Of a stretch of 64,000 bases of DNA, positions 4,709-62,657 are shown piece by piece. This stretch comes from Paenibacillus amylolyticus (lineage in GTDB: Bacteria > Bacillota > Bacilli > Paenibacillales > Paenibacillaceae). The position numbers and the translations under genes were made by a program. The stretch's first letter is position 1; each line of letters begins with the position of its first letter. The stretch spans positions 1,798,001 through 1,862,000 of the forward strand of contig NZ_CP121451.1 of the NCBI RefSeq assembly GCF_029689945.1, in the 5' to 3' direction. The notes beneath the pieces are model-generated. The model was not told the origin of the DNA. It did no database searches and worked only from the letters and a program-made list of their open reading frames with translations.

Positions 4709-7303
4709 GTGAATCAAAAGAAAATGTTTGTGAGCTTGCTCGCAAGTGCAATGTTGATCAGTTCAACCGCTGGCATCGCCATGGCAGCGAGCACAACCAA
4801 TAAAACGTCTGCCACCAGTTCAAATAGTAGTATATCGAAGAAAACAACAACGCAGAAAATTGTACATACACTCGGTAACCTGTCGGCTGTTAAAGTGACA
4901 GCACGAAGTTCCGTAAGATTAACAGATGTCAATATTTTGGCGCAGGACGATGGCAATGTGGTTACGTATACATTGTCTTACAAGAATAATGACAGCACCC
5001 CAATGATGATGCTCGATTACTGGAGCAAGGTGAAAACCAAGGGTGGAACATTGTTCTCGCCTAAACTGATCGCCAAAGATCAGGAAAAGAAAACCGTCGC
5101 GCCTGGATCAACCGTTGAGTTGACCTATGTTATGAAAGTAGGTCGCGAGGTGAAACTCAGTGATCTGAACTTCCTCATCGTGAAGTGGGATTTCAGTCAA
5201 GCTAACTATGAACGTACGCTGGGTAAGTTTAACGTGCCCGCATCCTATAGTATCACCACACCGGTAGGCAAACCGAAGACAGTTCGTCTGAGCGATTCTG
5301 CTGTGAAGGTGAAAGTATCAGGTATTAAAGTGTTTCCAGGTGAAGATAAGAAACAGTATGTGAAAATTGGCGTGAATTTAAACAATATCAGTTATAAATT
5401 GCTTGAAAACCCGAATATCAAATGGATTTTGCGTACGCCAAGTGGTACGAACTATCCGTTAACCCCGGATAAAGACAGCACGAGTGTCAGTATCCAAGCC
5501 CAAGCTAATAAGGCTCTCAGTCTGATGGCATCTCTTCCTACGTCAGTGAAGCTGCAAAAGTCTGAGTTGTTGCTGGTAGAAGAGCAGGGTGAAGAGAAGA
5601 GTGTTCTGCCCGTTGCTGCACTGCAATTGCCAGAGGCTAGCAAGACGAATGTAGAGGTTGCTGCCAATCAACCAAACATTATTTCTGTTGAAGGACAACG
5701 TCTGTCCACATTGCTTGAATCTGCCAAAGTAAGAATCGACGATGGTGAGTATAGTCTTAACCTTCAAATGAAGCTCAAGAATGAAGGCAAGAAAGCCATT
5801 AAGGTGCCGACATATACCTTCGAGGTACGGAATACAGACGGAACAGTCTATCCGATTGAAACCAAAGCTTTGGATGCATTGAAGTTGAACCCGGGTGATA
5901 TCAAGACGATTAAGCTGAATGCAACCCTTCAGGGTGATGGGGATACCAAAAAGATTAAGCTCTATGTAATGAGTCCGGTGGACAAAAATGAAAGTACAGA
6001 GTCAACAACAGCTTCTTCTCCAACTAATGGGTTTGTTTTCTCTTATCCTGTAGGTGTCTATGCAATCCCTGAATCGGTATCCAGCGGAGATGGATTAACG
6101 ACCGAAACAGTCATTAAGAATAACAAAGGTACATTTGGTGTGTCTTTTGGATCGTTACAGCGGTTGCCTTGGCTTGATAGTGATATTATTGCGGCAAAAG
6201 TGACCATTCGTAACGCAGGTAACAAAACAGTCCAACTTCCTGAACTTGAAGCAATGTTTATGATTGATTCTGCTGAGATTGAAGGAGACAAGAAGCTAAT
6301 TTACACACAAAGTGGCAAGCTACTTGGAGCGGGCATGACAACCGAGGCGTACCTTTTGACCAAGATCCCTTCTGAATTACGTATCTCTCGTCTGGAGCTT
6401 AGTCTAAACGAGAAAATTAGTGAAGAAGAAACGAATGAGTGGATCACGCTCAATACGTCTGGACTGATTTCACCGGTATCTTATGTTGGAAGCGGCAAGA
6501 CATACACATCGGGTACGGCGGATAAAGAGACCGAAATGGGTGTACGAAGAACGATTCGTTATCCAGGAACGTCATCGGACATTGTATATACCGAATTCGA
6601 AATGACGAACAAATCACTGCGTCAAAGTGGGCTTGGCAAACTTGTAGGTTACTTCAAGACATCGGATGGCCAGTATTACAGAGTAACTGCGAAGCAAGCA
6701 GAGCGTCTGCCTGGACCGGGCCAGAAGTCGATTGTTACGTTCTGGGCTAAGATTCCGAAGTCCACTACCTTCTCAGACTTGCGCCTGATTGTGGGCGAAG
6801 GTATTGCAGATAGCAAGTTTGTAACGGGTGAAGGGGAAGCGACTGCATATGTGAATGCTCTGGCATTCGAAGTGCCGCCAACCTCCATTAGTGTTCAAGG
6901 CTCGTTAACCAATATTGATCTCTATCCTTACTCTTGGACTGCCAACAGTGTGAGAGCATATCTGGCAGGCAGCTCATCTGTACAGATCGAGATGAATTAC
7001 AGCTTATCCCGTAATGAAGAGATTGAGATGGGTGAGAACGAGCATAAGTTAATCCTTACAATGACGGATCAAGCAGGCAAATCATATGAGAAAGAGTTAA
7101 CTTTGGGAACCGATCTGAAATTGGGAACCAACCAGACACTGAGCTGGAGCGTAGAAGACAGCTTCTTCGAGAAGCTTCGCGGTGGTTCGTATCGCTTAAG
7201 CGTAGATGATCAGTTCCAGGGACAACGTCTTCGTCTTGCGGAACAAAGCTACGGATATGACCTGACCAAACTTCCGAAGGAAGAACCCGTCGATATAAGA
7301 TAG
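4709..7303 (+). CDS. Large secreted protein of unknown function next to the S-layer gene
   Basis: GTG start at 4709, chosen because GGGAGG (4696-4701) stands 7 bases before it; the ATG at 4694 lies upstream of that site. 864 residues. A clear signal peptide (KKMFVSLLASAMLISS, cleavage near AMAAS) is followed by beta-rich repeats resembling stacked immunoglobulin-like domains, each with conserved phrases such as VTYTLSYKN, LNLQMKLKNEGKKAIKVP and KVTIRNAGNKTVQLP. No SLH module, membrane anchor or catalytic motif is visible. The repeated 'conserved change on neutral background' beta pattern suggests a structural or adhesive surface protein. It has its own terminator; an upstream promoter is not convincing. 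Confidence 0.8.
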   Translation: MNQKKMFVSLLASAMLISSTAGIAMAASTTNKTSATSSNSSISKKTTTQKIVHTLGNLSAVKVTARSSVRLTDVNILAQDDGNVVTYTLSYKNNDSTPMMMLDYWSKVKTKGGTLFSPKLIAKDQEKKTVAPGSTVELTYVMKVGREVKLSDLNFLIVKWDFSQANYERTLGKFNVPASYSITTPVGKPKTVRLSDSAVKVKVSGIKVFPGEDKKQYVKIGVNLNNISYKLLENPNIKWILRTPSGTNYPLTPDKDSTSVSIQAQANKALSLMASLPTSVKLQKSELLLVEEQGEEKSVLPVAALQLPEASKTNVEVAANQPNIISVEGQRLSTLLESAKVRIDDGEYSLNLQMKLKNEGKKAIKVPTYTFEVRNTDGTVYPIETKALDALKLNPGDIKTIKLNATLQGDGDTKKIKLYVMSPVDKNESTESTTASSPTNGFVFSYPVGVYAIPESVSSGDGLTTETVIKNNKGTFGVSFGSLQRLPWLDSDIIAAKVTIRNAGNKTVQLPELEAMFMIDSAEIEGDKKLIYTQSGKLLGAGMTTEAYLLTKIPSELRISRLELSLNEKISEEETNEWITLNTSGLISPVSYVGSGKTYTSGTADKETEMGVRRTIRYPGTSSDIVYTEFEMTNKSLRQSGLGKLVGYFKTSDGQYYRVTAKQAERLPGPGQKSIVTFWAKIPKSTTFSDLRLIVGEGIADSKFVTGEGEATAYVNALAFEVPPTSISVQGSLTNIDLYPYSWTANSVRAYLAGSSSVQIEMNYSLSRNEEIEMGENEHKLILTMTDQAGKSYEKELTLGTDLKLGTNQTLSWSVEDSFFEKLRGGSYRLSVDDQFQGQRLRLAEQSYGYDLTKLPKEEPVDIR

Positions 7304-7434: not shown

Positions 7435-8009
7435 ATGATTCACATGAAACCTTATATGAAAGTATCCCTTGCGGCGCTAGCGATCGGTGTTGGCGTGTGG
7501 GTTGGGTCGGTATACAGCAATACAGCCATCGGTGCAGGGACAAGCCAGCCAGGGACAGCAGACGATCCGGTTGTAACGAAGAGTTATGTAGATCAGCAGA
7601 TTCAAAAAGCATTGGGTGGCGGTGTTAGCACGGGTTCTGGCAACTCATCCGGTAGTAACTCAGGCTCTACAGGAACAGGGAACACGGGTAGCACAGGTGG
7701 AGATACTTCGCTTCCTCCACTGGTCTCAGGCGCATCTAATGCCGTTGAGATCGTAACCGTGAAGCCGGGTCAACAGCTGATCGGCAAATCTGGCGCGGAG
7801 TTCATCGTACGTAGCGGCAAGGCTGTGATCGTCAGTGAAGGTACGAATGGTGTAGCGGATCTGACGGACGGGATTGACCTGACGAATGGACAGGCAGCGC
7901 CGACCAATCACCTGCTCTCTTTTCCAAGGGATGGACGGGGATTGCTGTATTGGAAGGGAACAAATATAGCCTAACCGTAATGGTTCGTGGTGGATATACT
8001 TTGAAATAG
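7435..8009 (+). CDS. Small exported Gly/Ser-rich protein (one frame break)
   Basis: AGAGGAGG at 7424-7431 serves either the ATG at 7435 (very close) or the one at 7444 (12 bases), both in frame. The protein has an N-terminal membrane or signal segment (VSLAALAIGVGVWVGSVYS), a short coiled segment (VTKSYVDQQIQKAL), a low-complexity Gly/Ser/Thr linker, and a C-terminal beta domain beginning VTVKPGQQLIGKSGAEFIVR. The frame breaks in the G-run at 7937-7940: adding one G turns the ending into GRGIAVLEG...VMVRGGYTLK with a stop at 8007-8009, the expected end for this type of Bacillales domain. About 191 residues when repaired. Function unknown; likely membrane-anchored and extracytoplasmic. Confidence 0.7.
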
Positions 8010-8157
8010 GTTTTGCTTCTGTTAAAGGAATTATTCATTCTTCATCCATTTCATTTGCTCAGATTAACCAGTTCTAACAAACATTAATACGGCTAGCCAG
8101 CCTTGTTCCTGCTCAATCTATAACTGTTGATAATTAATTAATGGAGGTGCAGGAACT

Positions 8158-22406: not shown

Positions 22407-24034
22407 TCACAGGTCTTTCCAAGTTATATCAAGGTTAAAGTAGGGGTTTCGTCTAAACCCGCGCCCTGGCTTGTCGAAATAAACACATTCAATAATCTCT
22501 TTTAAAAGATCATTTTTATCTTTAGGGGATTCTAGGTGTTCGAAGGTATCAACTACGTTTTTCAAACGTGGGATAAAATTGTTCTTTTTAGCAGCTTTAT
22601 TTTTTTCAGCATTTAGATCTTCGCTGGTTTGTTTGAATTGTTCGTTAAGCTCGTCAATCTTCTTGGAAATCGTGGATTGTCGTTCAAGGAATGTATCCAG
22701 AGTATAAATTTCCTGCTCTAAATAATCATGTGCATTAGCTAATTGCTTTTTTGCTTTTACAATCAACTTATTTAAGTTACTCACTTTTGTCTCCAAATCT
22801 TCAATGATGTCTTGCTTAGACGCAGTTATGAAGTTAGGATCTGCTATTACTTCGGCATAAACTCCTTCATCTGTTTAACCAGTTGTTCTTCTACATAGAT
22901 ATAGGCTATTGAGTGATTTTCTTTACAGTTCAATACTGGACAAATAATTTGGTGCTTATTTCTTGGTTTAGAATAGTTAATAGAGTAATTCATCATATTT
23001 CCACAATAGTGACATTTAAGCAATGTGGCCATCGGATTTCTGAAAACCGTATTCCGTTTGTTTTTTGCAGTATTGTTTTCGTTAATTCTTCTTTGGACTT
23101 TTATGAAATCGTCTTCAGAACAGAGCGGAATATGGGTGTCTTTTGTGACCGTCCAATCTTCTTTAGGGATCGGAATTATTTTATATGAACCATCCTCAAG
23201 CTTTATATACTTTTTTTTGCCGGACACATATACTCCTGTGTAAACCAGATTCTTGAGCATTCGATGCACATTTTTATAATTATATGAACTACTATTCAAA
23301 GGGAAAACCGTTTCGGTTGTCAATCTATCTAAGATAGTCTCCATTTTTTCACCATCAGCAAACCATTTAAAAATGTTGCGGACAATTTGGTGGTGTTCAG
23401 GATGAGGATACAATTTTAAATTAGCCATATCAGATGGGGTTTTCTCGTACTCCAGAATAAGATGTGGATAGTTAGTTTTGAAATCGAGCCCTTTAATATA
23501 CCCAAATGGAGCATGAGTCCAAATATAGTTTCCTCTGCTGGCAGATCGTTTTCTACCGTCCTGTAATCTTCGTTTTGACTGTTTATACTCGTATCGAGCA
23601 CCCATTCCTTTATAATCCATGTACAACTCATCGGCTTCATCTTGCAAATCGACAATTTTGTACGGGGTTATGATATAAGCATTTGATTCTTTGAAAGCTC
23701 TTTCTATTCGACCTTGATCTATCTTGTCGCCACGTCCTAGACGATCCTCGTCCATAACGCCAACCCATTTGATTTCACCACTTCTAAGCATTTCCAGAGC
23801 CTTTTGCATTTTTGGTCTCTCGGCAATAAATTCCCCACTCACTAGCTCTTCAAAGAGATCTACAACATGAAGTTTATACTTCTTTGCCATCTCCAGAAGT
23901 GCAATCCTATGTTTTTCTAAAGTATCATATGGTTTGCCATTAGCAGCAGCTTCTTTTTCAGCTTCAATATCTTTTCGTGATTTTCTTGAATATAGCAAAC
24001 CTGGTAGCCCTTCAAGATTTATCATTATAAACAT
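22407..24034 (-). CDS. Large serine recombinase (phage integrase; one frame break)
   Basis: About 542 residues after repair. Resolvase domain first: LLYSRKSRKD puts the catalytic serine at residue 19, followed by the conserved VGVMDEDRLGRGD. The Recombinase domain comes next (APFGYIKG, IFKWFADGEKMETIL), then a zinc ribbon (CHYCGNMM...CPVLNC) and a C-terminal coiled coil (VSNLNKLIVKAKKQL). It integrates the phage by joining attP and attB through a serine-DNA intermediate. One base missing near 22852-22855 splits it after EFMP; restoring it gives EFMPEVIADPNFITASKQ. It lies beside attL, as usual, and is transcribed toward comFC, in line with the repressor. Confidence 0.93.
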
Positions 24035-24039
24035 CCTTT

Positions 24040-24767
24040 CTAAAATCTTCGTCTAACTTCAATTACCTTACCTAAGATTTCAACTTGGTCAGCAGGAACG
24101 AGAGAAGGTTCCATTTTAGGATTTGAGGGCATAAGAATGCACATCTCTCCTTGGCACTTTACTCGTTTCAATGTTGCCGTCTCTCGATTGACTGCGACGA
24201 CAGCTATATCAGAAGAAGTAACTTCTTGCTGTGAAATGCAAATTACGATATCCCCACTCATAATCATGTCACCGATCATGCTGTCACCTTTTACATTCAG
24301 CGCAAAGGCCTTGTTACCTCTAGTTATTGCTTTATCAACGTATTCGATATCTTCTGCTAACTCAATACGATCAATAGGCTCACCGGCTGCTATAGAACCA
24401 AGTAGAGGTATTTGTGTAATACGATCTATAGGAAGGCTACCAGATTGAGCATCTTTTACTCGAATGGCACTTTCATATTCTCTTCTTAACTCTTCAGCTT
24501 TAATCAATCTAATTAGTTGATTATGGAGTTCGTGTGGAGCTCTTTCCATTAACGCAGCAAGTAGCAGTTCCTCAGGATTAGTATTTATAGCTTTTGCAAT
24601 TGCGCGAGTCAACTCATCAGTTGCAGGGTTTTTTACTTTTCCGTTTTGTAGCCTACTTATGTACCCCTTACCAACCCCAAAGCCATCTTTTTCGATTTTT
24701 TCAGCTATTTCTTCAAGTGTACAACCAGATTCTTTTATTCTTTTTTCAAAAGTTCAAAATAATTCAT
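24040..24767 (-). CDS. CI-like phage repressor, HTH plus S24 peptidase (one frame break)
   Basis: About 242 residues. The N-terminal helix-turn-helix (CTLEEIAEKIEKDG, VGKGYISRLQNGKV) is out of frame with the rest because the T-run at 24741-24746 lacks one base; adding it gives a start at 24767 (MNYFELLKKRIKES). The C-terminal half is a LexA/S24 self-cleaving domain: cleavage site Ala-Gly in SIAAGEP, catalytic Ser in GDSMIG and Lys in TLKRVK. Such repressors hold lysogeny and are inactivated when RecA filaments form, linking induction to DNA damage. It ends 5 bases before the recombinase and is probably co-transcribed with it. Confidence 0.9.
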
Positions 24768-27635: not shown

Positions 27636-27733
27636 GACATGCCTAGGATGTCCGCAAGATGTCCAACGGACATCCACTGGACAGTGTGCGGATGTCCTTC
27701 CCATGTCGGATTGAAGGCGGTGGAAATCTAAAA

Positions 27734-33792: not shown

Positions 33793-33957
33793 AAGTGAGT
33801 TGGCGGGGAACTGGTTGAGTTGTTCGAAAGTAGCCATCCAGCCCGAGCCATTGCCGATATAGCGGATAAGAAACGTGTCCAGCGAGATCAAATCATTACT
33901 CAGATACCTGAGAGCGTGTATAAGGAGTTGCAGCAGTCTGAGGCGGTGGGGAAATGA
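33770..33957 (+). CDS. Small helical DNA-binding-like phage protein (one frame break)
   Basis: ATG 33770 with GGAGGGG upstream. The G-run at 33805-33808 lacks one G; repaired, it gives about 62 residues: GELVELFESSHPARAIADIA, then KKRVQRDQIITQIPESVYKE, to the TGA overlapping the next ATG. Unknown function. Confidence 0.55.
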
Positions 33958-34658
33958 CAGCACCGACATTAGAGGACGTAAGAGCGAAGTTGGATACACT
34001 TGCGAGGGAGCGGTTCGAAGAATCCGATTATGAATTGTTCTGTGCTCTGCTTCACCAGCTGGACAAGTATAAAGCTTTGGCTGATAGCAACAGAGAGGCT
34101 ATGTATAGTCAAGACAAGGAGTTTTCCCAACATTCGGAGATCCAGCAAGCAGAAATAGACTCGCTTCGTCGTAGTGTTGAATACTGGCAAAAGAAATGCA
34201 CGTTATTGTTCGTGGAGAATGACAGGTTAGTAAATGATTCGGGGAAGGTGCAGAGCATGGGGGCGGTGATGGTCCAAATGGAATTGATACCAAGCGCGGA
34301 TGAAAGAGACATTGCCCAACTGGTCAAACTGTTGACTGATGATTACCATCAATGGTTGGCATCTATGAAAGTTTTGAGTAAAATGCCTGTATTGACTCCA
34401 GACCAAAAGGCCAAGTATGAAACGTATCAAATGCAGGTCGATGTAGTGCAGGCCGCTATAGATGTCATCATGGATAAAGAGGCGCGGGATATCATCATGC
34501 ATCAGTACATCAAATCGACCCGCCGCAAGTACACAGTTGCACTATTCCAGGGTCGCGGGCTAAGCGAGCGCACAATTGATAGACGGATCAGCAAGGGGTT
34601 ACTGAGCATAGCCAACACTCTCAAGGATTGCGGAATGCTTTGGCCCTCCGAAAAGTGA
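33954..34658 (+). CDS. ArpU/RinA-like late transcription activator
   Basis: 234 residues. Long central helices are followed by a C-terminal sigma-region-4-like helix-turn-helix (YTVALFQGRGLSERTIDRRI, SKGLLSIANTL). Position just before the packaging genes and the C-terminal HTH fit phage late-gene activators such as ArpU and RinA. Family call by fold and position. Confidence 0.65.
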   Translation: MTAPTLEDVRAKLDTLARERFEESDYELFCALLHQLDKYKALADSNREAMYSQDKEFSQHSEIQQAEIDSLRRSVEYWQKKCTLLFVENDRLVNDSGKVQSMGAVMVQMELIPSADERDIAQLVKLLTDDYHQWLASMKVLSKMPVLTPDQKAKYETYQMQVDVVQAAIDVIMDKEARDIIMHQYIKSTRRKYTVALFQGRGLSERTIDRRISKGLLSIANTLKDCGMLWPSEK

Positions 34659-34905
34659 CGGTAAATTGACGGTATGTTGGCAATCGAATGACGGTGAAAC
34701 AGCAATACACTAGGCACATAGAGAGGTTAAGTCCTCTCCGGTGTGCCCAGTGCCCGTTATCGCGCTTGGACTCAACCATATTGAGTGACCCGGCAAGAGT
34801 CCCAGGACATCTTGCAGATGTGGCGGTATGGACGTGGGGAAAGCGGGTAAAATCACCGCATTTAATGTGACCTATTGGATATCCGGGTTCGATTCCTGGG
34901 AAGGT
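34659..34905. other. Intergenic gap with cloverleaf-fragment-like sequence
   Basis: No supported gene. Near 34876-34903 CCGGG-TTCGATT-CCTGG looks like a tRNA T-arm, but no acceptor or anticodon arm fits around it. A probable target of the late activator. Confidence 0.4.
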
Positions 34906-35385
34906 CTACTTATTTAATAGATCGTAAAGATCCGCTTCGGCTTCAGAGTCTTTCTTTAGCCTGTCTATAAACTCTCTATTGCTACCCTTGTTTCTATATT
35001 TATAAGCTCGAATACCGCATTTAATTAGCCATACAATCGAAGAAATTCCAATCAGTATAAAAACTGCCTTCCACGAATCTGCGGAAACGGTTAAGAATGT
35101 TTTGAAATCGGCCGCTACTAAGGAAGCGATTACCGCCAGAAGTATGGACAGTGGCGTAATCCAATCGCGCTTCGAGTGAAGGTATTTTTCTTGGTCTATC
35201 AGTGCTAAATTGATTTTGTCTGTAGTAGTAATAATAATGTCTTGATTCAGGTTCTTATGTACCCTGTTGTCGCCAATGAGTTCCTGATTAATTTGAAATT
35301 TCTGTTTCATTGGTTCATATATCGGCCTAGTTGTTCGCGCATGAGTTTTAACAATAGCCTTTCGATTTGGGGGCGTAGCGGACAT
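34906..35385 (-). CDS. Two-helix membrane protein of a minus-strand cargo module
   Basis: The ATG at 35385 is chosen because GGAAGGTGAG stands just before it. 159 residues: a hydrophilic N-terminal half (FQINQELIGDNRVHKNLNQD), two membrane helices (WITPLSILLAVIASLVAADF and AVFILIGISSIVWLIKCGI), then a charged cytoplasmic tail. AT-rich compared with its neighbours. It starts one base after the partner gene at 35387 ends, so they form an operon opposite to all late genes. Function unknown; effector-like shape. Confidence 0.7.
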   Translation of the reverse strand: MSATPPNRKAIVKTHARTTRPIYEPMKQKFQINQELIGDNRVHKNLNQDIIITTTDKINLALIDQEKYLHSKRDWITPLSILLAVIASLVAADFKTFLTVSADSWKAVFILIGISSIVWLIKCGIRAYKYRNKGSNREFIDRLKKDSEAEADLYDLLNK

Positions 35386-35386
35386 A

Positions 35387-35758
35387 TCACTCACCTTCCT
35401 TAACATTTCTATAGAAAGTATATTGGAATATCTTGCTTTTGGACTCGGTAATTGAATTCAACCTGAAATTAAAAAATAGTTTTTTATTATCAAGGGTACC
35501 AATTGGGATTGGCTTTGAGTTTCCTGTTCCGAAAGGGCTATCAAAGTTATAAAAAAACAAATTTATTTCTTCTGCCTCTTCATCGAATTCTGCATCCAAG
35601 TCTGTACTGTCATCGTTATCAATAAAGACCATGTTAACTTTCAACTTGAATCCTGCCTCGAGTTCCACTATAAACTTGAGGGGATTCTCGTCGTATGTAA
35701 TTAGTGTTCCGGAGGATAGGATCTCTGTCTGTCCAGAAAGGATTTTAGTCTTTTTCAT
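35387..35758 (-). CDS. Beta-rich cytoplasmic partner of the membrane protein (DUF6864-like)
   Basis: ATG 35758 with GGAGG 7 bases upstream. 123 residues, beta-rich and acidic (LKFIVELEAGFKLKVNMVFI, DSPFGTGNSKPIPIGTLD, IFQYTFYRN). It resembles the family I know as DUF6864, small proteins found beside membrane proteins in mobile elements; not verified. Probably the sensor or antidote of the pair. Confidence 0.65.
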   Translation of the reverse strand: MKKTKILSGQTEILSSGTLITYDENPLKFIVELEAGFKLKVNMVFIDNDDSTDLDAEFDEEAEEINLFFYNFDSPFGTGNSKPIPIGTLDNKKLFFNFRLNSITESKSKIFQYTFYRNVKEGE

Positions 35759-35791
35759 CAAGGAACCTCCATTATTTAAGGGGATGATTTT

Positions 35792-35932: not shown

Positions 35933-36219
35933 ATTTTTTAGGAAGCGAAATAAACCCTTGATACAACTAAGAAATTTCAATCCATGCCAGTTATGCAAAT
36001 ATATAGATATGAATAACTCATCAGAAAAGATTTGAAGGTGCAAATATGTGAGGTGGTAATTAGGGGAATTTTGAGCGGATGCCCTGTTACCTTTTATCCT
36101 AGCAGGATTCAGCTATGTTGTGGCCTGACTGTTCTAAGAGCGTTAACCGGGTGACTCTTCTTTTGATCAGGGAGGCCATACTGGTATAGTAAGAAATTTT
36201 AAAAAAATGTTGAAAATTA

Positions 36220-36275
36220 TGGTATATTGCTTGATTATTAAAGGGACAAAAAAAATATTACAGGAACATTTGTTC
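36220..36275 (+). promoter_or_regulatory. Extended -10 promoter and SOS (LexA) box of the RexAB-like pair
   Basis: TGG-TATATT (36220-36228) is an extended -10. GAACATTTGTTC (36264-36275) matches the Firmicute LexA box, GAAC-N4-GTTC, about 25 bases downstream of the start point and 23 before the gene, a position suited to repression. Confidence 0.5.
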
Positions 36276-36297
36276 TGACATTGATCGGGTGATATAA

Positions 36298-37140
36298 TTG
36301 AAAAGAAAATTTTTAGCGGCAAAAGTTAATATTAATGAGGGGATTTTCAGTGATGACGTTAATTATTTGATCAGACTCATTCCAGAAGTCATTCTTTCCT
36401 ATCCGGAACTCCATTCAAATAGATCACCTTGGGTCTGGTGCTTTGGAGAATTGGAAACCGATAAAGAACGCAAAGTTATATGGGGGAATTTCGTAAAGAA
36501 AAGAAACGACCAGATACTTATCTACGAGGGGTCAAAAGCGAGTTACCAAGATATTGAAAATGTGGCTTGTCAGAGTTTTTTTCTCTATAATTCAGAAACG
36601 GAAATTCTCGTATTTGAAGAGACTGGAGATATAAATCGAGAGTCATTTATGTCTGCATTCGAACGTATTATTTATAAAGGGCACATTGAGATAGGGGAGA
36701 TCTCAGTACAACTCGTGCCACTCAAAAGTGTAATAAAATCAAAGATTGATGATATCGAGGTTCTAACGAAAATTGAATTCGACTTGATACATCCAAACCC
36801 AATACATCACGATTCGTATAAAGATTTAGATGATATCATAAAAAAGGAACAAGCAACTCGGTTGAAAACAACACTCGAAAATCAGAATGGTTTAAACAAA
36901 GAGGGTCCATTCATCCAAAGTGGAATTGAGATGGTATCCAAAGGATACGGTGACGTCAATGCATTTGGTTATTCCAGAGTTCAAACATACGGTAAGAGGA
37001 AAAGAATTAGGAAAAATCAGCAACGAGTGAGATCTAAAGATGAGGTGCAAATGACTTTCGCAGAAAAAGATATAGAAAAGAATGAATTAGTATCTAAACT
37101 CACGACGTTTGCTAAAAAAATATCAAGTATGCTTTTATAA
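36298..37140 (+). CDS. RexA-sized cytoplasmic protein of a candidate abortive-infection pair
   Basis: TTG start at 36298, weak ribosome site (GGGTGAT). 280 residues, AT-rich. The N-terminal half is alpha/beta (VNYLIRLIPEVILSYPELHS, GNFVKKRNDQILIYEGS, FFLYNSETEILVFEETGD), then IEFDLIHPNP and a basic C-terminus. No membrane segment. It seems related to families I know as DUF4747-like; unverified. Followed by a four-helix membrane protein in the same operon, the same order and sizes as lambda rexA-rexB. Confidence 0.55.
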   Translation: MKRKFLAAKVNINEGIFSDDVNYLIRLIPEVILSYPELHSNRSPWVWCFGELETDKERKVIWGNFVKKRNDQILIYEGSKASYQDIENVACQSFFLYNSETEILVFEETGDINRESFMSAFERIIYKGHIEIGEISVQLVPLKSVIKSKIDDIEVLTKIEFDLIHPNPIHHDSYKDLDDIIKKEQATRLKTTLENQNGLNKEGPFIQSGIEMVSKGYGDVNAFGYSRVQTYGKRKRIRKNQQRVRSKDEVQMTFAEKDIEKNELVSKLTTFAKKISSMLL

Positions 37141-37151
37141 AGCGAGTTGAG

Positions 37152-37691
37152 ATGATGCATAGAGATGAGCGTATAACCAGAAAGACCACAACTTTTATGG
37201 GTTTACTAAAGATCACTACGTTTAAACCCTTTTTTATAACACCAGTTTTTTTTGTTTCTTTTGTTTTGGCCGTTGTGTTTTATTATTATTTCAAGGACGT
37301 AACAGATTTCTCAAGTTTAACAGAGTACATTTCAGAAACAGTCGCTTCAATATCGGCTACACTATTAGGTATAGTAATAGCTGGCTTAGCAATCTTAATA
37401 TCTTTGACCCAAGGTAAGCTACTATCTCTGTTCCTACAGAAGAACATACTCCAAAAATTTTTGTTTCCATTCTGGGTATTTACTGGAGCATGGGCGTTAT
37501 CAACTTTAATCTGTATTTGTGTGAAACTTTTCGTGTATTTTGACCCTAAAGTATTACTGTATGTCTTTACAACGGAAGTTTTTGTGTTTGTATATGCTCT
37601 GTTAGGTACAGTCAGTCTTATGGGTCATGCGATACGTTTTGGCTTATACATCGCTCAAATCACAGATGTAATTGATAACGATACCAAATAG
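37152..37691 (+). CDS. Four-helix membrane protein, RexB-like partner
   Basis: 179 residues, 11 bases after the previous stop. Four membrane helices: about 27-47 (FFITPVFFVSFVLAVVFYYY), 62-86 (VASISATLLGIVIAGLAILI), 103-128 (FPFWVFTGAWALSTLICICV) and 133-160 (LYVFTTEVFVFVYALLGTVS). Short ends, no enzymatic motif. Own terminator follows. As RexB forms a membrane channel opened when RexA senses infection, a similar effector role is possible but unproven. Confidence 0.6.
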   Translation: MMHRDERITRKTTTFMGLLKITTFKPFFITPVFFVSFVLAVVFYYYFKDVTDFSSLTEYISETVASISATLLGIVIAGLAILISLTQGKLLSLFLQKNILQKFLFPFWVFTGAWALSTLICICVKLFVYFDPKVLLYVFTTEVFVFVYALLGTVSLMGHAIRFGLYIAQITDVIDNDTK

Positions 37692-37701
37692 TTTATGAGA
37701 T

Positions 37702-37737
37702 AATAAACCGTTGAAGTCTTTGCGGTTTATTTTTTTT
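37702..37737 (+). terminator. Terminator of the RexAB-like pair
   Basis: AATAAACCG / CGGTTTATT with a 12-base loop, followed by eight T. Confidence 0.85.
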
Positions 37738-37814
37738 ATATAGTCGTCCCTTTGAAGAGAAAATTCTTTATAAACGTAAGTAGATCCATCCTTATTGGGG
37801 AAGGGAGTGAAGAC

Positions 37815-38756: not shown

Positions 38757-39291
38757 ATGGCGAGGCCGCGTCAACCGATTGACTTATTGCTGTACAAGGG
38801 ACAGAAGAATCTGACCAAGCAAGAAATTGAGGAACGGAAGTCCGCCGAGATAAAAGCACCATCCGATAAAATACGAGCACCATCATATTTGCCAAAAGAT
38901 TTGCGCCGAGATTTTAAGAAGATTTCGGATGAGTTGATTGCGATCGGTATCATGTCCAATCTGGATGTTGATGCCCTATGCAGGTATCTGATTTCCCGAA
39001 AGCTCTACCTTCAAGTTACAAACGAGCTGCTGAATCGAAAGCCCAATTGTGCAGTATGAACAATCGGAAGATGACAGCGTGGACGGTGAGTTGATTCCAG
39101 GTACAAAAACGGTAGAGATTTTCAGTAGTATTTATGCTGACCTTACGCTTAACCAGGACAAGTTTTTCAAACAGTGCCGTCAAGCTGCAAGTGACTTGGG
39201 CCTCACCATTTCTTCGAGGTGCAAACTGGTTGTGCCGAAGAAAGAGGAAAAGGGGCCGACAGAGTTTGATGAAAGGTTCGGGGATGTGTAG
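38757..39291 (+). CDS. Terminase small subunit, P27 family (one frame break)
   Basis: GGGAGGAGG precedes the ATG. About 177 residues. Begins MARPRQPIDLLLYKGQKNLT, with APSYLPKDLRRDFKKI and later YADLTLNQDKFFKQCRQAAS, the layout of P27-type small terminases that recognise the packaging site. Frames join around 39030-39045, where one surplus A in CGAAAG would explain the break (NRSPIVQYEQSEDD). Stop overlaps the large subunit start. Confidence 0.85.
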
Positions 39292-41022
39292 TGATCAAGC
39301 AATATTTGATCGACTATTCTCGAGATGTAATTGACGGGCATGTCGTAGCGTGTCAGAAACACATATGGGCGTGTATACGATTCATAAAGGATATCGGTCG
39401 GGAGAACACACCTGATTTCCCTTACGTTTTCGATGAAGACAAGGCCATGCGATTTTTCGAATGGATGAACCTATTCCGTCATACAAAAGGGCCGCTTCAA
39501 GGGCAAAGGATTGTTCCGCATGATATCCAGTATTTCATCTTTGGAAACATCTACGGATGGGTTAATGTGGACACAGGTTATCGGCGTTTCAGATACGCAT
39601 ATTGGCAGGTCGGGCGCAAAAACGCCAAATCCCAAAGTCTGGGCGTTGTGGCTTCTTATGAAACAGCCGCTATGGGCGAAGGGATGGCAGAGGTTTATTG
39701 CGCTGCTACAAAGAAAGACCAGGCCAAAATTGTTTGGAACGAAACTAAAGTAATGATCGAACGGTGTCCGGAACTTCGAACCAAGTTCAAAACCACATAT
39801 GGCGTGATTCGACATCTTAAAAGCGAATCGATCATGAAACCACTCAGCAAAGAGGATGGGAAAAAGGGTGATGGTTACAACCCTCAATGCGGGATCGTGG
39901 ATGAATATCACGCTCATGAAACAACCGAAATGTATGACGTTATTGATTCAGGGATGATCTCACGGACTCAGCCTTTGATGATGATCATCACAACGGCTGG
40001 TGAGAACTTAAATAGCCCTTGTTATCGTATTGAGTATGAAATGGTTTCACGTCTTTTGGATCCGAGCGATGAGGGTACAGAGAATGATGACTATTTTGCG
40101 ATGGTCAATGAGTTGGACAAGGACGAAGATGGGAATCTGATTGATGACATTGCAGATGAGAAGGTATGGGAAAAAGCCAATCCTATAGCTGCATCCCATG
40201 AAGTGGGTAGGGCAAGCATTCGGAAAAGGTTGAAAAACGCACTGAATGCGCCTGAGAAAATGAATGATTTCTTGACCAAGAACATGAACATTTGGGTCAA
40301 TGGCGGCGAGAAGAAATACATGCGAATGGATGCATGGGCTGCTTGCGGTACAGAAGAAATGCAAGATGTTCAAGGAATAGAGGCTTATGTCGGCGTGGAC
40401 ATGTCCATGAAAACCGACCTTTCATCCGCAGTCTTTGAATTCCAGCTTCCAGATGGGCGTTTTCTTGTTCGGCAACGTTCTTTCATTCCGGGTGACACGT
40501 TGGAAAGAAAAAGAAAACCGATAAAGTTCCTTATGATCTCTGGATCAAAAAGGGATGGCTTGAAGTAATTCCTGGACCCGTTGTGGATCAAACATATATT
40601 GAAAATTGGATCGTTAAAGCGTCTGAGGAATGGGCATGCGCGATTAAGGAAATATGCTATGACCCATACCAAGCCACACAGTTTGCTATTCAGATGTCTG
40701 AGCGTGGTTACGAGATTGTGGAGATCCGGCAAGGGATACAAACGTTGTCCGAGCCAATCAAAGGCTTCAGGGAATTGGTCCTTCAAAAGAAAATTGTTCA
40801 CGAGAAGGATCAGTTGTTAACCTGGGCAATGAGTAATGCAGTTTTAAAGGTTGACCAAAAGGAAAACGTATTGCTGGACAAAGCGAAGTCCACCAATCGG
40901 ATTGATCCGGTAGCTGCAACCATTGATGCGCACGTCCGGCGATTTTCGCGGAACCGAAAATGGATGTTTCTGAGTTTGCGAACGAAGATATGTTGAAACA
41001 ACTGTGGGGTGATGGAAATTGA
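39291..41022 (+). CDS. Terminase large subunit (two frame breaks)
   Basis: GTG start overlapping the previous TAG. About 577 residues. ATPase: Walker A variant in WQVGRKNAKSQSL, Walker B in GIVDEYHAH, then ITTAGENLNS. Nuclease domain: AYVGVDMSMKTDLSSAVF provides the first metal-binding Asp. Powers DNA into the head and cuts it. Breaks: an A missing near 40508-40517 (restores TDKVPYDLWIKKGWLEVIPG) and a base missing near 40937 (restores AIFAEPKMDVSEFANED with a TGA at 41020). Confidence 0.92.
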
Positions 41023-60088: not shown

Positions 60089-60298
60089 ATGACAAATAAA
60101 TGGTGGCAAGCGGCAGGCGTTCGGGCAATTAAAACAGGAGCGCAGGTCGCTATTGGTGTTATTGGTGCAACTACTGTATTCGCAGAAGTGGACTGGCGTG
60201 TAGTGGGCGGGACAGTTGTATTATCGGTAATCACGAGTCTGCTTACCAGTTTGGCCGGATTACCTGAAGTAAACAAAGGAGATGGTATAGATGCCTAA
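60089..60298 (+). CDS. Holin
   Basis: 69 residues with two membrane helices (AIKTGAQVAIGVIGATTVF and VVGGTVVLSVITSLLTSLAG), ending LAGLPEV. Matches the r1t-like holin pattern. Overlaps the endolysin gene by 8 bases. Confidence 0.88.
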   Translation: MTNKWWQAAGVRAIKTGAQVAIGVIGATTVFAEVDWRVVGGTVVLSVITSLLTSLAGLPEVNKGDGIDA

Positions 60299-61019
60299 AG
60301 TATGGATTGACGCAGGTCATGGCGGTAAGGACCCAGGAGCTGTGGCGAATGGGCTGCAAGAAAAGGATATTACACTGAAGGTATCTCTCGGGATCAAGCA
60401 ACGTCTGGAGACGGAATATGAGAATGTTCAGGTTCTGCTTTCCAGATCAACAGATGTGTTCCTTGAACTGAAGGAGCGGACAAGCAAAGCCAATGCTGCG
60501 GGTGCTGACATCCTGGTATCCATCCATTGCAACGCTGGTGGGGGCAAGGGCGGGTTCGAGTCCTTCCGGTATAGTTCGGCATCCCAAAACAGCATCAAGC
60601 TTCAAAACGCATTACACAAAGCCATCACAGGCGAGATTGGCGGGATTGATCGTGGCATTAAGGCTCAAAACTTGAACATGGTACGTGAATCTAAGATGCC
60701 TGCCGTATTGACAGAAAATCTGTTTGTTGATGTTTCTGCGGATGCCGATCGGCTCAAACAAGCAAGTGTGCTCGATGCAATCATTAATGGTCATGTTCTC
60801 GGTATTGCTACACACCTGGGACTGATTAAGAAGGTGAAGGAACAAAAGCCAGTGACACAAGATAGAGACATTAACAATCCAAGCAAGTGGGCTGAGTCGG
60901 CCTGGACTGATTTAACTTCCAAAGGATACTTCGATGGTAGCAGACCAGGAGCACCGATCACGCGCGAGGAAATGGCGGTAGTCCTGAATCGTTTGCTTAA
61001 CAACATCGCCCAAAAATAA
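60291..61019 (+). CDS. Endolysin: N-acetylmuramoyl-L-alanine amidase with SLH-like C-terminus
   Basis: 242 residues after AAGGAGATG. Amidase_3 domain: WIDAGHGGKDPGA (zinc His10), LQEKDITL (Glu24), SIHCNAG (zinc His), and VLTENLFVD (catalytic Glu). The last 50 residues (SKWAESAWTDLTSKGYFDGS and APITREEMAVVLNRLL) form an SLH-like module, as in host S-layer proteins, probably for wall binding. Confidence 0.92.
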   Translation: MPKVWIDAGHGGKDPGAVANGLQEKDITLKVSLGIKQRLETEYENVQVLLSRSTDVFLELKERTSKANAAGADILVSIHCNAGGGKGGFESFRYSSASQNSIKLQNALHKAITGEIGGIDRGIKAQNLNMVRESKMPAVLTENLFVDVSADADRLKQASVLDAIINGHVLGIATHLGLIKKVKEQKPVTQDRDINNPSKWAESAWTDLTSKGYFDGSRPGAPITREEMAVVLNRLLNNIAQK

Positions 61020-62324: not shown

Positions 62325-62338
62325 AGAACATATGTTCG
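62325..62338 (+). promoter_or_regulatory. SOS (LexA) box
   Basis: AGAACATATGTTCG, a perfect palindromic Firmicute LexA box, 26 bases before the gene at 62364. Confidence 0.8.
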
Positions 62339-62363: not shown

Positions 62364-62657
62364 ATGCTTACGGATTATCAACGAAAGGTACTACGGATCT
62401 TATATAACTACAATAGTGGACGCAGGCGCCTGCCTACTGTGCATGAACTTACAATTAAAACAGGGAAGCATACGCCTGATGTTATGGCTGCTCTTGACGC
62501 TCTTATTGACGCTGAGTACATACATTGGGAAGACAAGTCAGACACCAGTAATCTTGTTATTCTGGAAGGCTGGGAAAGAGAATCGGAAAAGCCTAAGCTT
62601 CCCAAGGTACTGCCACCGGCGCAGTCAAACGATTTAAGTTACTGGACCCTATACTAG
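62364..62657 (+). CDS. LexA-like winged-helix protein
   Basis: GAGGTGA before ATG. 97 residues. TDYQRKVLRILYNYNSGRRR and PTVHELTIKTGKHTPDVMAA match the LexA DNA-binding domain, but the peptidase half is absent. May compete at SOS boxes or act as a prophage regulator. First gene behind the LexA box and followed by YolD. Confidence 0.7.
   Translation: MLTDYQRKVLRILYNYNSGRRRLPTVHELTIKTGKHTPDVMAALDALIDAEYIHWEDKSDTSNLVILEGWERESEKPKLPKVLPPAQSNDLSYWTLY

Follow-up and report, generated by a model that had tools for sequence, protein, structure and literature searches.

We analyzed a 64-kb stretch of the Paenibacillus amylolyticus genome (hereafter the window, meaning all 64,000 nucleotides [nt] of it), which carries a prophage. 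In the late region of this prophage lies a compact cassette in which a gene for a RexA-like protein (gene A) is followed, on the same strand and after a gap of 11 nt, by a gene for a RexB-like membrane protein (gene B). The components of this unit are as follows.

36200-37745, plus strand: entire movable cassette (promoter, box, gene A, gene B and terminator); sole long blastn match to two phages, L009/L013 and L010/L014
36210-36238, plus strand: probable cassette promoter, TTGAAA-N17-GATTAT, from a promoter scan; hexamers and spacing kept in L013 and L014
36264-36275, strand unassigned: LexA (SOS) box GAACATTTGTTC, an exact match to GAAC-N4-GTTC
36287-36293, plus strand: probable ribosome-binding site GGGTGAT ahead of the TTG start of gene A, read from the sequence; kept in L013 and L014
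36298-37140, plus strand: gene A, RexA-like protein of 280 residues, TTG start
37152-37691, plus strand: gene B, RexB-like four-helix membrane protein of 179 residues, ATG start
37702-37735, plus strand: intrinsic terminator, with a stem of 10 bp and a trailing T run (-13.2 kcal/mol, z -3.62)

A preliminary description of this DNA had placed a 280-residue cytoplasmic protein and a four-helix membrane protein, with their own promoter and terminator and a GAAC-N4-GTTC box in the leader, in the late region. Both proteins, the exact box and the location, between a late regulator and the HNH endonuclease and terminase genes, are as described. The promoter and terminator also hold up, each with a qualification. 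L013 and L014, the two nearest relatives, keep both promoter hexamers and their 17-nt spacing in a leader that is otherwise much diverged, but the promoter scan itself performs at the level of shuffled sequence. The terminator is absent from the output of a terminator scan, its loop being longer than the scan permits. Homology to L009 extends to 37745, past the terminator, and the sequence downstream of gene B has a folding-energy z score of -2.26 in L009 and of -2.29 in L010, where a different stem is formed.

The strongest link to Rex comes from the predicted structure of the gene A product. Its AlphaFold2 model (predicted local distance difference test [pLDDT] 84.9) was compared with 350,542 PDB chains by Foldseek, a comparison with RexA having been proposed in the preliminary description, and the top match is phage lambda RexA (8twq), followed by RdgC, a published relative of RexA; VIA-align also ranks lambda RexA first. 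Strands and helices follow one another in the model as in the split-domain layout published for RexA (PMC11077077; statements on cited papers, here and below, refer to the available parts of their text). By analogy with RexA, the model has a globular domain split between residues ∼1-139 and ∼250-280, with a second domain inserted at ∼143-245. On the basis of this model, the gene A product is predicted to be a cytoplasmic protein with the split RexA/RdgC fold. The gene is under purifying selection, with nonsynonymous divergence (dN) of 0.09 and 0.20 from L013 and L014, respectively, and synonymous divergence (dS) of 0.84 and saturated.

No sequence profile connects gene A to RexA. Neither PF15969 nor the PADLOC RexA model PDLC02339 matches it at E values up to 1, whereas lambda RexA, used as a control, scores 1.4e-96 and 1.3e-108 against the same models. 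Because gene A thus falls outside the curated RexA family, the cassette is RexAB-type in a wider sense, by fold, partner, gene order and setting, and does not belong to the curated RexA/RexB sequence families. A protein database lists PF15931.11 (DUF4747) for all 13 gene A homologs looked up, whereas hmmscan finds PF15931 in 0 of the 13. The homolog from an Enterococcus plasmid prophage (L037) falls below the cut-off of this family (21.6 of 27 bits, E 1.6e-4), and a search of the Paenibacillus genome itself with PF15931.10 gave 0 matches, its controls being likewise silent.

Kiwa systems also combine a multi-pass membrane protein with a cytoplasmic protein, in the order kwaA-kwaB, and their overall plan is similar to that of the cassette. 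A Kiwa-like pair is nevertheless very improbable, given that the fold match is to RexA, that the gene order is the opposite of kwaA-kwaB, and that the PADLOC scan, expected to include KwaA and KwaB models, yields no match to either at E values up to 1.

Gene B encodes a protein with four hydrophobic segments, and its AlphaFold2 model is entirely helical (mean pLDDT 79.9). The PADLOC RexB model matches it weakly (E 0.0012, 17.1 bits) and matches 4 of 12 aligned gene B proteins, at best with an E value of 6e-5, while the Pfam RexB family (PF15968) gives no match to gene B. The RexB model also fails to match gene B in the distant relatives L037, L012, L002 and L003, and RexB models likewise leave unmatched the membrane proteins of two phages with RexAB-like systems, Sbash gp31 and CarolAnn gp43. 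Among PHROG families, 'RexB-like exclusion protein' reaches an E value of 0.06 and ranks after a family of unknown function (0.0031). Alignment by hhalign of 15 gene B sequences with three RexB sequences gives a score of 28.5 (E 6.6e-4, probability 27%, 48 columns); with 43 gene B sequences the score is 25.4 (E 0.0026, probability 12%), and ten column shuffles reach at most 17.6. In BFVD, a 165-residue Sbash protein ranks eighth (E 2.1) and has the highest query template-modeling score (0.51) among the best 50 of 80 matches; Sbash gp31 is described as having 165 residues. These lines are individually weak but all run in one direction, and together they point to gene B being a membrane protein of RexB type.

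Conservation within gene B is highest in the second transmembrane segment (TM2), the central loop, TM4 and TM3, and its dN values of 0.11 and 0.13 against L013 and L014 stand beside the 0.09 and 0.20 of gene A. These figures bear on a reversal of roles described for Butters gp30/gp31 (PMC7542560; PMC12894663), in which antiviral activity resides in the cytoplasmic protein and the membrane protein just restrains it. The present data do not clearly separate such an arrangement from one with an active membrane component. However, gene B is about as well conserved as gene A, and its conserved TM2 and central loop fit an active membrane component somewhat better. We judge a Butters-like arrangement to be quite unlikely here.

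Genes A and B are conserved as a pair. Profile searches for gene A returned 52 open reading frame (ORF) rows from the window, IMG/VR, GTDB genomes, other genomes, and plasmid and phage records. After rows identical over gene A residues 60-200 had been dropped, 33 distinct loci were left, including one (L068) with a gene A of just 145 residues. Pairing was counted from gene A over these 33 loci, a set to which eight reference-phage loci and homologs known as proteins alone do not belong, and the partner was defined as the ORF with the most hydrophobic segments among those of at least 80 residues starting -80 to +300 nt from the gene A stop codon. A downstream membrane ORF is present in 32 of the 33 loci, at -41 to +205 nt, with four hydrophobic segments in 26 cases and three in the remaining six, which may be threshold effects. 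The sole exception, L060, stops at a contig end. By comparison, none of 29 other window ORFs of at least 200 residues (mechanically called on both strands) has such a neighbor. The preliminary description had held that its reading would fall if the pair were not conserved as a unit, and here the pair is retained almost throughout.

The pair is sparsely distributed. With the Paenibacillus genome itself counted each time, gene A is matched in 3 of 394 genomes of the family (query A1), and in 6 of 392 order-level and 6 of 398 phylum-level genomes (query A3); gene B is matched in 4 of 394 Paenibacillaceae genomes. A related pair occurs in one genome of the same genus (G100), 12 gene A loci come from IMG/VR, and all loci with a named bacterial source belong to Bacillota. 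The settings of the homologs are varied, and include a position beside an integrase gene (L012; the integrase identified by eye) and a Priestia plasmid. Such a sparse and scattered distribution looks like that of mobile cargo.

Upstream of gene A, three islands stand out in the otherwise diverged leaders of the window, L013 and L014, namely the promoter TTGAAA-N17-GATTAT, the 12-mer GAACATTTGTTC, which is identical in all three phages, and the ribosome-binding site. GAAC-N4-GTTC is the LexA consensus of Bacillota, and it agrees with boxes upstream of lexA in the present host. In 4 of the 33 loci (the window, L009, L010 and L037), an exact box is located no more than 300 bp upstream of gene A; 200 dinucleotide shuffles average 0.09 such loci and never exceed 1. 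When one mismatch is allowed, 8 of 33 loci carry a box, compared with a shuffle mean of 2.25 and a maximum of 6. The window, L009 and L010 are close kin and form one case, so that the four loci amount to about two independent ones. The other is L037 from Enterococcus, whose gene A is 18% identical in the alignment (23% by tblastn) and whose box fills the spacer of a TTGACC-N17-TATAAT promoter. A promoter spacer is a classic position for a repressor site.

The pattern GAACATNTGTTC occurs at 12 distinct places in the host genome, compared with 4 for a reversed control pattern. One of these places belongs to the cassette itself, one precedes a UvrX-like polymerase gene by 54 bp (L028; named by eye), and two stand ahead of copies of a small gene whose N-terminal stretch resembles LexA (L025 and L027; by eye); no clear SOS gene could be named for the others. 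Exact boxes with other spacer letters are found upstream of host lexA (L015), and a box with a single mismatch is present in the recA locus (L019). The cassette box may instead serve a repressor of the phage's own, but the same kind of box occurs at these two host loci. Taken together, SOS gating of the cassette is well supported as far as sequence can speak to it.

Another exact box, GAACATATGTTC, is located elsewhere in the window, at 62326-62337. It precedes a 97-residue ORF (62364-62657) with a LexA-like N-terminal stretch, which is followed by a YolD-like ORF (both identified by eye). The same box also accompanies a similar ORF near G000:C1:4126663 (L027).

The cassette is movable prophage cargo. 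In a blastn comparison (E 1e-8) of window positions 26001-52000 with fetched 15-kb phage stretches, the single long match is the cassette, which is 81% identical to L009/L013 over 36200-37745 and 72% identical to L010/L014 over 36200-37673. The other matches are pieces of ∼65-120 nt, mostly in the leader behind the late regulator. In L009 the cassette is flanked by direct repeats of ∼250 nt (5864-6115 and 7752-8011, 86-89% alike) that take in the 3′ end of the regulator gene. Two relatives with a related late regulator lack gene A, and it is on these two that the comparison of occupied and unoccupied slots is based. The regulator of L079 is 95% identical to that of L010, and the similarity of this phage ends at L010:5956. 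For L080, whose regulator shares 67% identity with the one in the window, similarity reaches window position 34860. In the Enterococcus plasmid prophage L037, the pair lies at the equivalent place, with ArpU on one side and the terminase small subunit on the other, and with tRNA-Trp ahead of the pair.

The surrounding prophage genes in the window are arranged as follows.

22847-24034: integrase
24040-24612: LexA/UmuD-like repressor (phrog_4, phrog_811)
near 27659: prophage replication genes
33954-34658, plus strand: late transcription regulator bordering the cargo slot (phrog_21810, of unknown function, E 1.8e-26; phrog_248, transcriptional activator, E 1.3e-4)
from 37752 on: HNH endonuclease, small and large terminase
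60291-61019: endolysin

The identity of the prophage repressor raises the prospect that the pair serves the prophage's own switch, with SOS inducing prophage and cassette together. The RexA-like protein would then aid lytic commitment, a role proposed for lambda RexA, gene B would temper it, and exclusion would be a side effect. A role for RexA in the lambda switch has been published (PMC11077077). However, gene A begins at 36298, ∼11.7 kb from the repressor gene, and the cassette has its own terminator. Moreover, it is absent from L079 and L080 despite their related late regulators, and its homologs sit in settings as different as that of L012 and the Priestia plasmid. We regard a role in the prophage switch as unlikely.

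The slot between the late regulator and the HNH gene holds two cargo units, the RexAB-like cassette and a pair of genes on the minus strand at 34906-35761. The latter encode a DUF6864 protein (PF21732, E 3.7e-28) and a 166-residue protein with two hydrophobic stretches noted by eye. L080 has no blastn match to this unit, and a literature search found no paper mentioning DUF6864. The small (38757-39291) and large (39291-40996) terminase genes each appear to be split into two ORFs in different frames, the second pieces having been recognized by eye, which may reflect prophage decay or assembly errors. Genes A and B, unlike these, are full length. Behind the cargo slot, L013 (8414-8962), L014 (7561-8109) and L079 (3904-4464) carry a gene of ∼182-186 codons that resembles a tyrosine recombinase by eye. 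It occurs with or without the cassette and might take part in cargo exchange.

Several features of the leader behind the late regulator were also observed. In three relatives this region contains a match to the Rfam family epsC (RF01735), at L010:5747-5861, L079:3616-3728 and L009:7986-8100, with scores of 92, 88 and 86 bits, respectively (gathering threshold 42). This family is EAR, a processive antitermination RNA known from exopolysaccharide operons. Placed at the start of a phage late operon, such an RNA could allow transcription to continue past cargo terminators; a literature search on this arrangement returned no paper that matched it in full. The window leader (34696-34910) can be aligned with those of L010, L079 and L080, but ∼25 nt of its later portion are missing. 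Rfam finds no match in it and no epsC match in L080, and the element may have been lost there. Directly behind the window regulator gene are three TGACGGT repeats (34656, 34667 and 34689), and TGGCGGT-like repeats were seen by eye in the corresponding region of L037 (∼2298-2330) and L009 (∼7900-7945). These repeats, shared by different genera, are candidate regulator sites at the late promoter.

We consider it probable that the cassette forms a two-component system of the RexAB type for excluding phages, gated by SOS and carried as prophage cargo. The RexAB-like reading put forward in the preliminary description is thus supported by modeled fold, partner, order and setting, and a defensive role would follow by analogy with lambda, Sbash, CarolAnn and P. 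putida. In a healthy lysogen, LexA would bind the box and hold expression of the cassette low. Derepression would come with DNA damage or with an infecting phage that induces the SOS response, and the SOS burst would raise both proteins together. The gene A product, probably a DNA-binding dimer of the RexA/RdgC fold, would act as a sensor that contacts and activates the gene B product, and this four-helix protein would probably assemble into a channel. Opening of the channel would depolarize the membrane, such that the infected cell is arrested or killed before phage progeny are made.

Some observations weigh against this interpretation. Two genomes (G190 and G358) have gene B matches, a weak partial one and a 36-residue piece, with no gene A in the 1.5-kb flanks, which lowered our confidence very slightly. 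An exact box is lacking in 29 of the 33 loci, which indicates that most of the family is under other control. The bare motif with up to one mismatch shows no enrichment across the window (29 matches, 6 of them exact, compared with 25.5 expected; 23 of 100 shuffles reach 29), and the promoter scan of the region found 8 promoter-like sites compared with 8.1 in shuffles. The last two observations would also be expected if unrelated prophage genes had come together by chance and the palindrome were fortuitous. Such a coincidence is close to refuted, and we give it hardly any weight, since the pair is kept in 32 of 33 loci, exact boxes precede gene A far more often than in shuffles (4 of 33 compared with 0.09), and the homology is limited to the cassette.

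Within the RexAB-type interpretation, it is conceivable, though on the doubtful side, that the cassette acts as an arrest switch tripped by DNA damage, with no specific phage protein required. LexA derepression alone would then lift the RexA-like protein past the level at which the channel opens. For lambda and Pseudomonas putida, overproduction of RexA is reported to activate RexB without infection, and in P. putida also to damage membranes (PMC12894663). If the cassette does work in this way, Rex in this branch would be an SOS output, shutting down cells damaged by an incoming phage and also those about to release a competing prophage. DNA-damage control of Rex-type systems would then have arisen independently on at least two occasions, once through LexA and once through CapKS.

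How T4 rII activates lambda Rex is described as still unexplained 70 years after Benzer, and five RexAB-like systems have been described so far (PMC12894663). The gene A branch adds 33 distinct loci whose diverged sequences can be used for mapping conserved contacts. Its named sources are all Bacillota, relatives of the experimentally tractable Bacillus subtilis, and a subset of the loci carries a defined DNA-damage switch site. The branch therefore lets one ask whether Rex is a sensor of specific phage proteins or whether dosage after DNA damage is enough. Among the literature matches listed, including those for Bacillus, Paenibacillus and Bacillota but leaving most subscription papers uncovered, none describes a LexA box placed directly on a Rex-type operon. 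The RexAB of Staphylococcus aureus was considered and rejected as a relative of the cassette; in their available text, the papers listed for it concern DNA repair and SOS in that species, and the shared name is a coincidence. The S. aureus protein pair is an AddAB-type nuclease.

Compared with lambda RexA/RexB (PF15969, PF15968), the cassette shares the predicted fold of A, the order A then B, a membrane-embedded B and a prophage setting. The preliminary description had claimed that order and sizes mirror lambda rexAB; this is true of the order and of gene A (280 versus 279 residues), whereas gene B agrees only roughly (179 versus 144). The cassette further departs from lambda in lacking a sequence-profile match for gene A and in not adjoining the cI repressor gene; it has its own promoter and LexA box, while lambda Rex is expressed with cI. 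Expression with or beside the repressor is not strictly defining, however, because it is lacking in Sbash as well as in the cassette. RexAB-type systems are further characterized by nonspecific DNA binding of an A dimer, by membrane damage from B once A has activated it, and by loss of phage growth.

The Mycobacterium phage Sbash pair gp30/gp31 likewise consists of a cytoplasmic and a four-pass membrane protein, is located behind lysis genes and not beside the repressor, and has its own promoter (PMC6426606), as predicted for the cassette. It differs in the size of gp30 (372 residues) and in having no sequence-profile link to the cassette, and LexA control is not mentioned in the available text. 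The Gordonia phage CarolAnn pair gp44/gp43 has the same two-gene plan, and both of its genes are needed for defense. Unlike the cassette, it is expressed with the immunity repressor; gp44 has 370 residues and again no sequence-profile link. RexABpp of Pseudomonas putida (PP_5643/PP_5644) is alike in plan, with a DNA-binding RexA-fold protein and a four-helix membrane effector in a prophage, and its paper reports an HHpred sequence link between RexApp and RexA (probability 98.19). This system lies downstream of a CI-like repressor gene with two genes between, and the accessible text mentions no LexA box.

The closest parallel in control is provided by CapK/CapS operons. Systems of the DUF4747/CarolAnn kind follow 17 of 443 capKS loci and are under DNA-damage control there (PMC13373217, EMBO J 2026), in a main text in which, as far as available, the word LexA does not occur. 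In that case a Rex-type operon is governed through an adjacently encoded kinase and repressor, whereas the cassette carries a putative site for host LexA. Set beside these systems, the Paenibacillus cassette has the appearance of a remote relative of Rex under different control.
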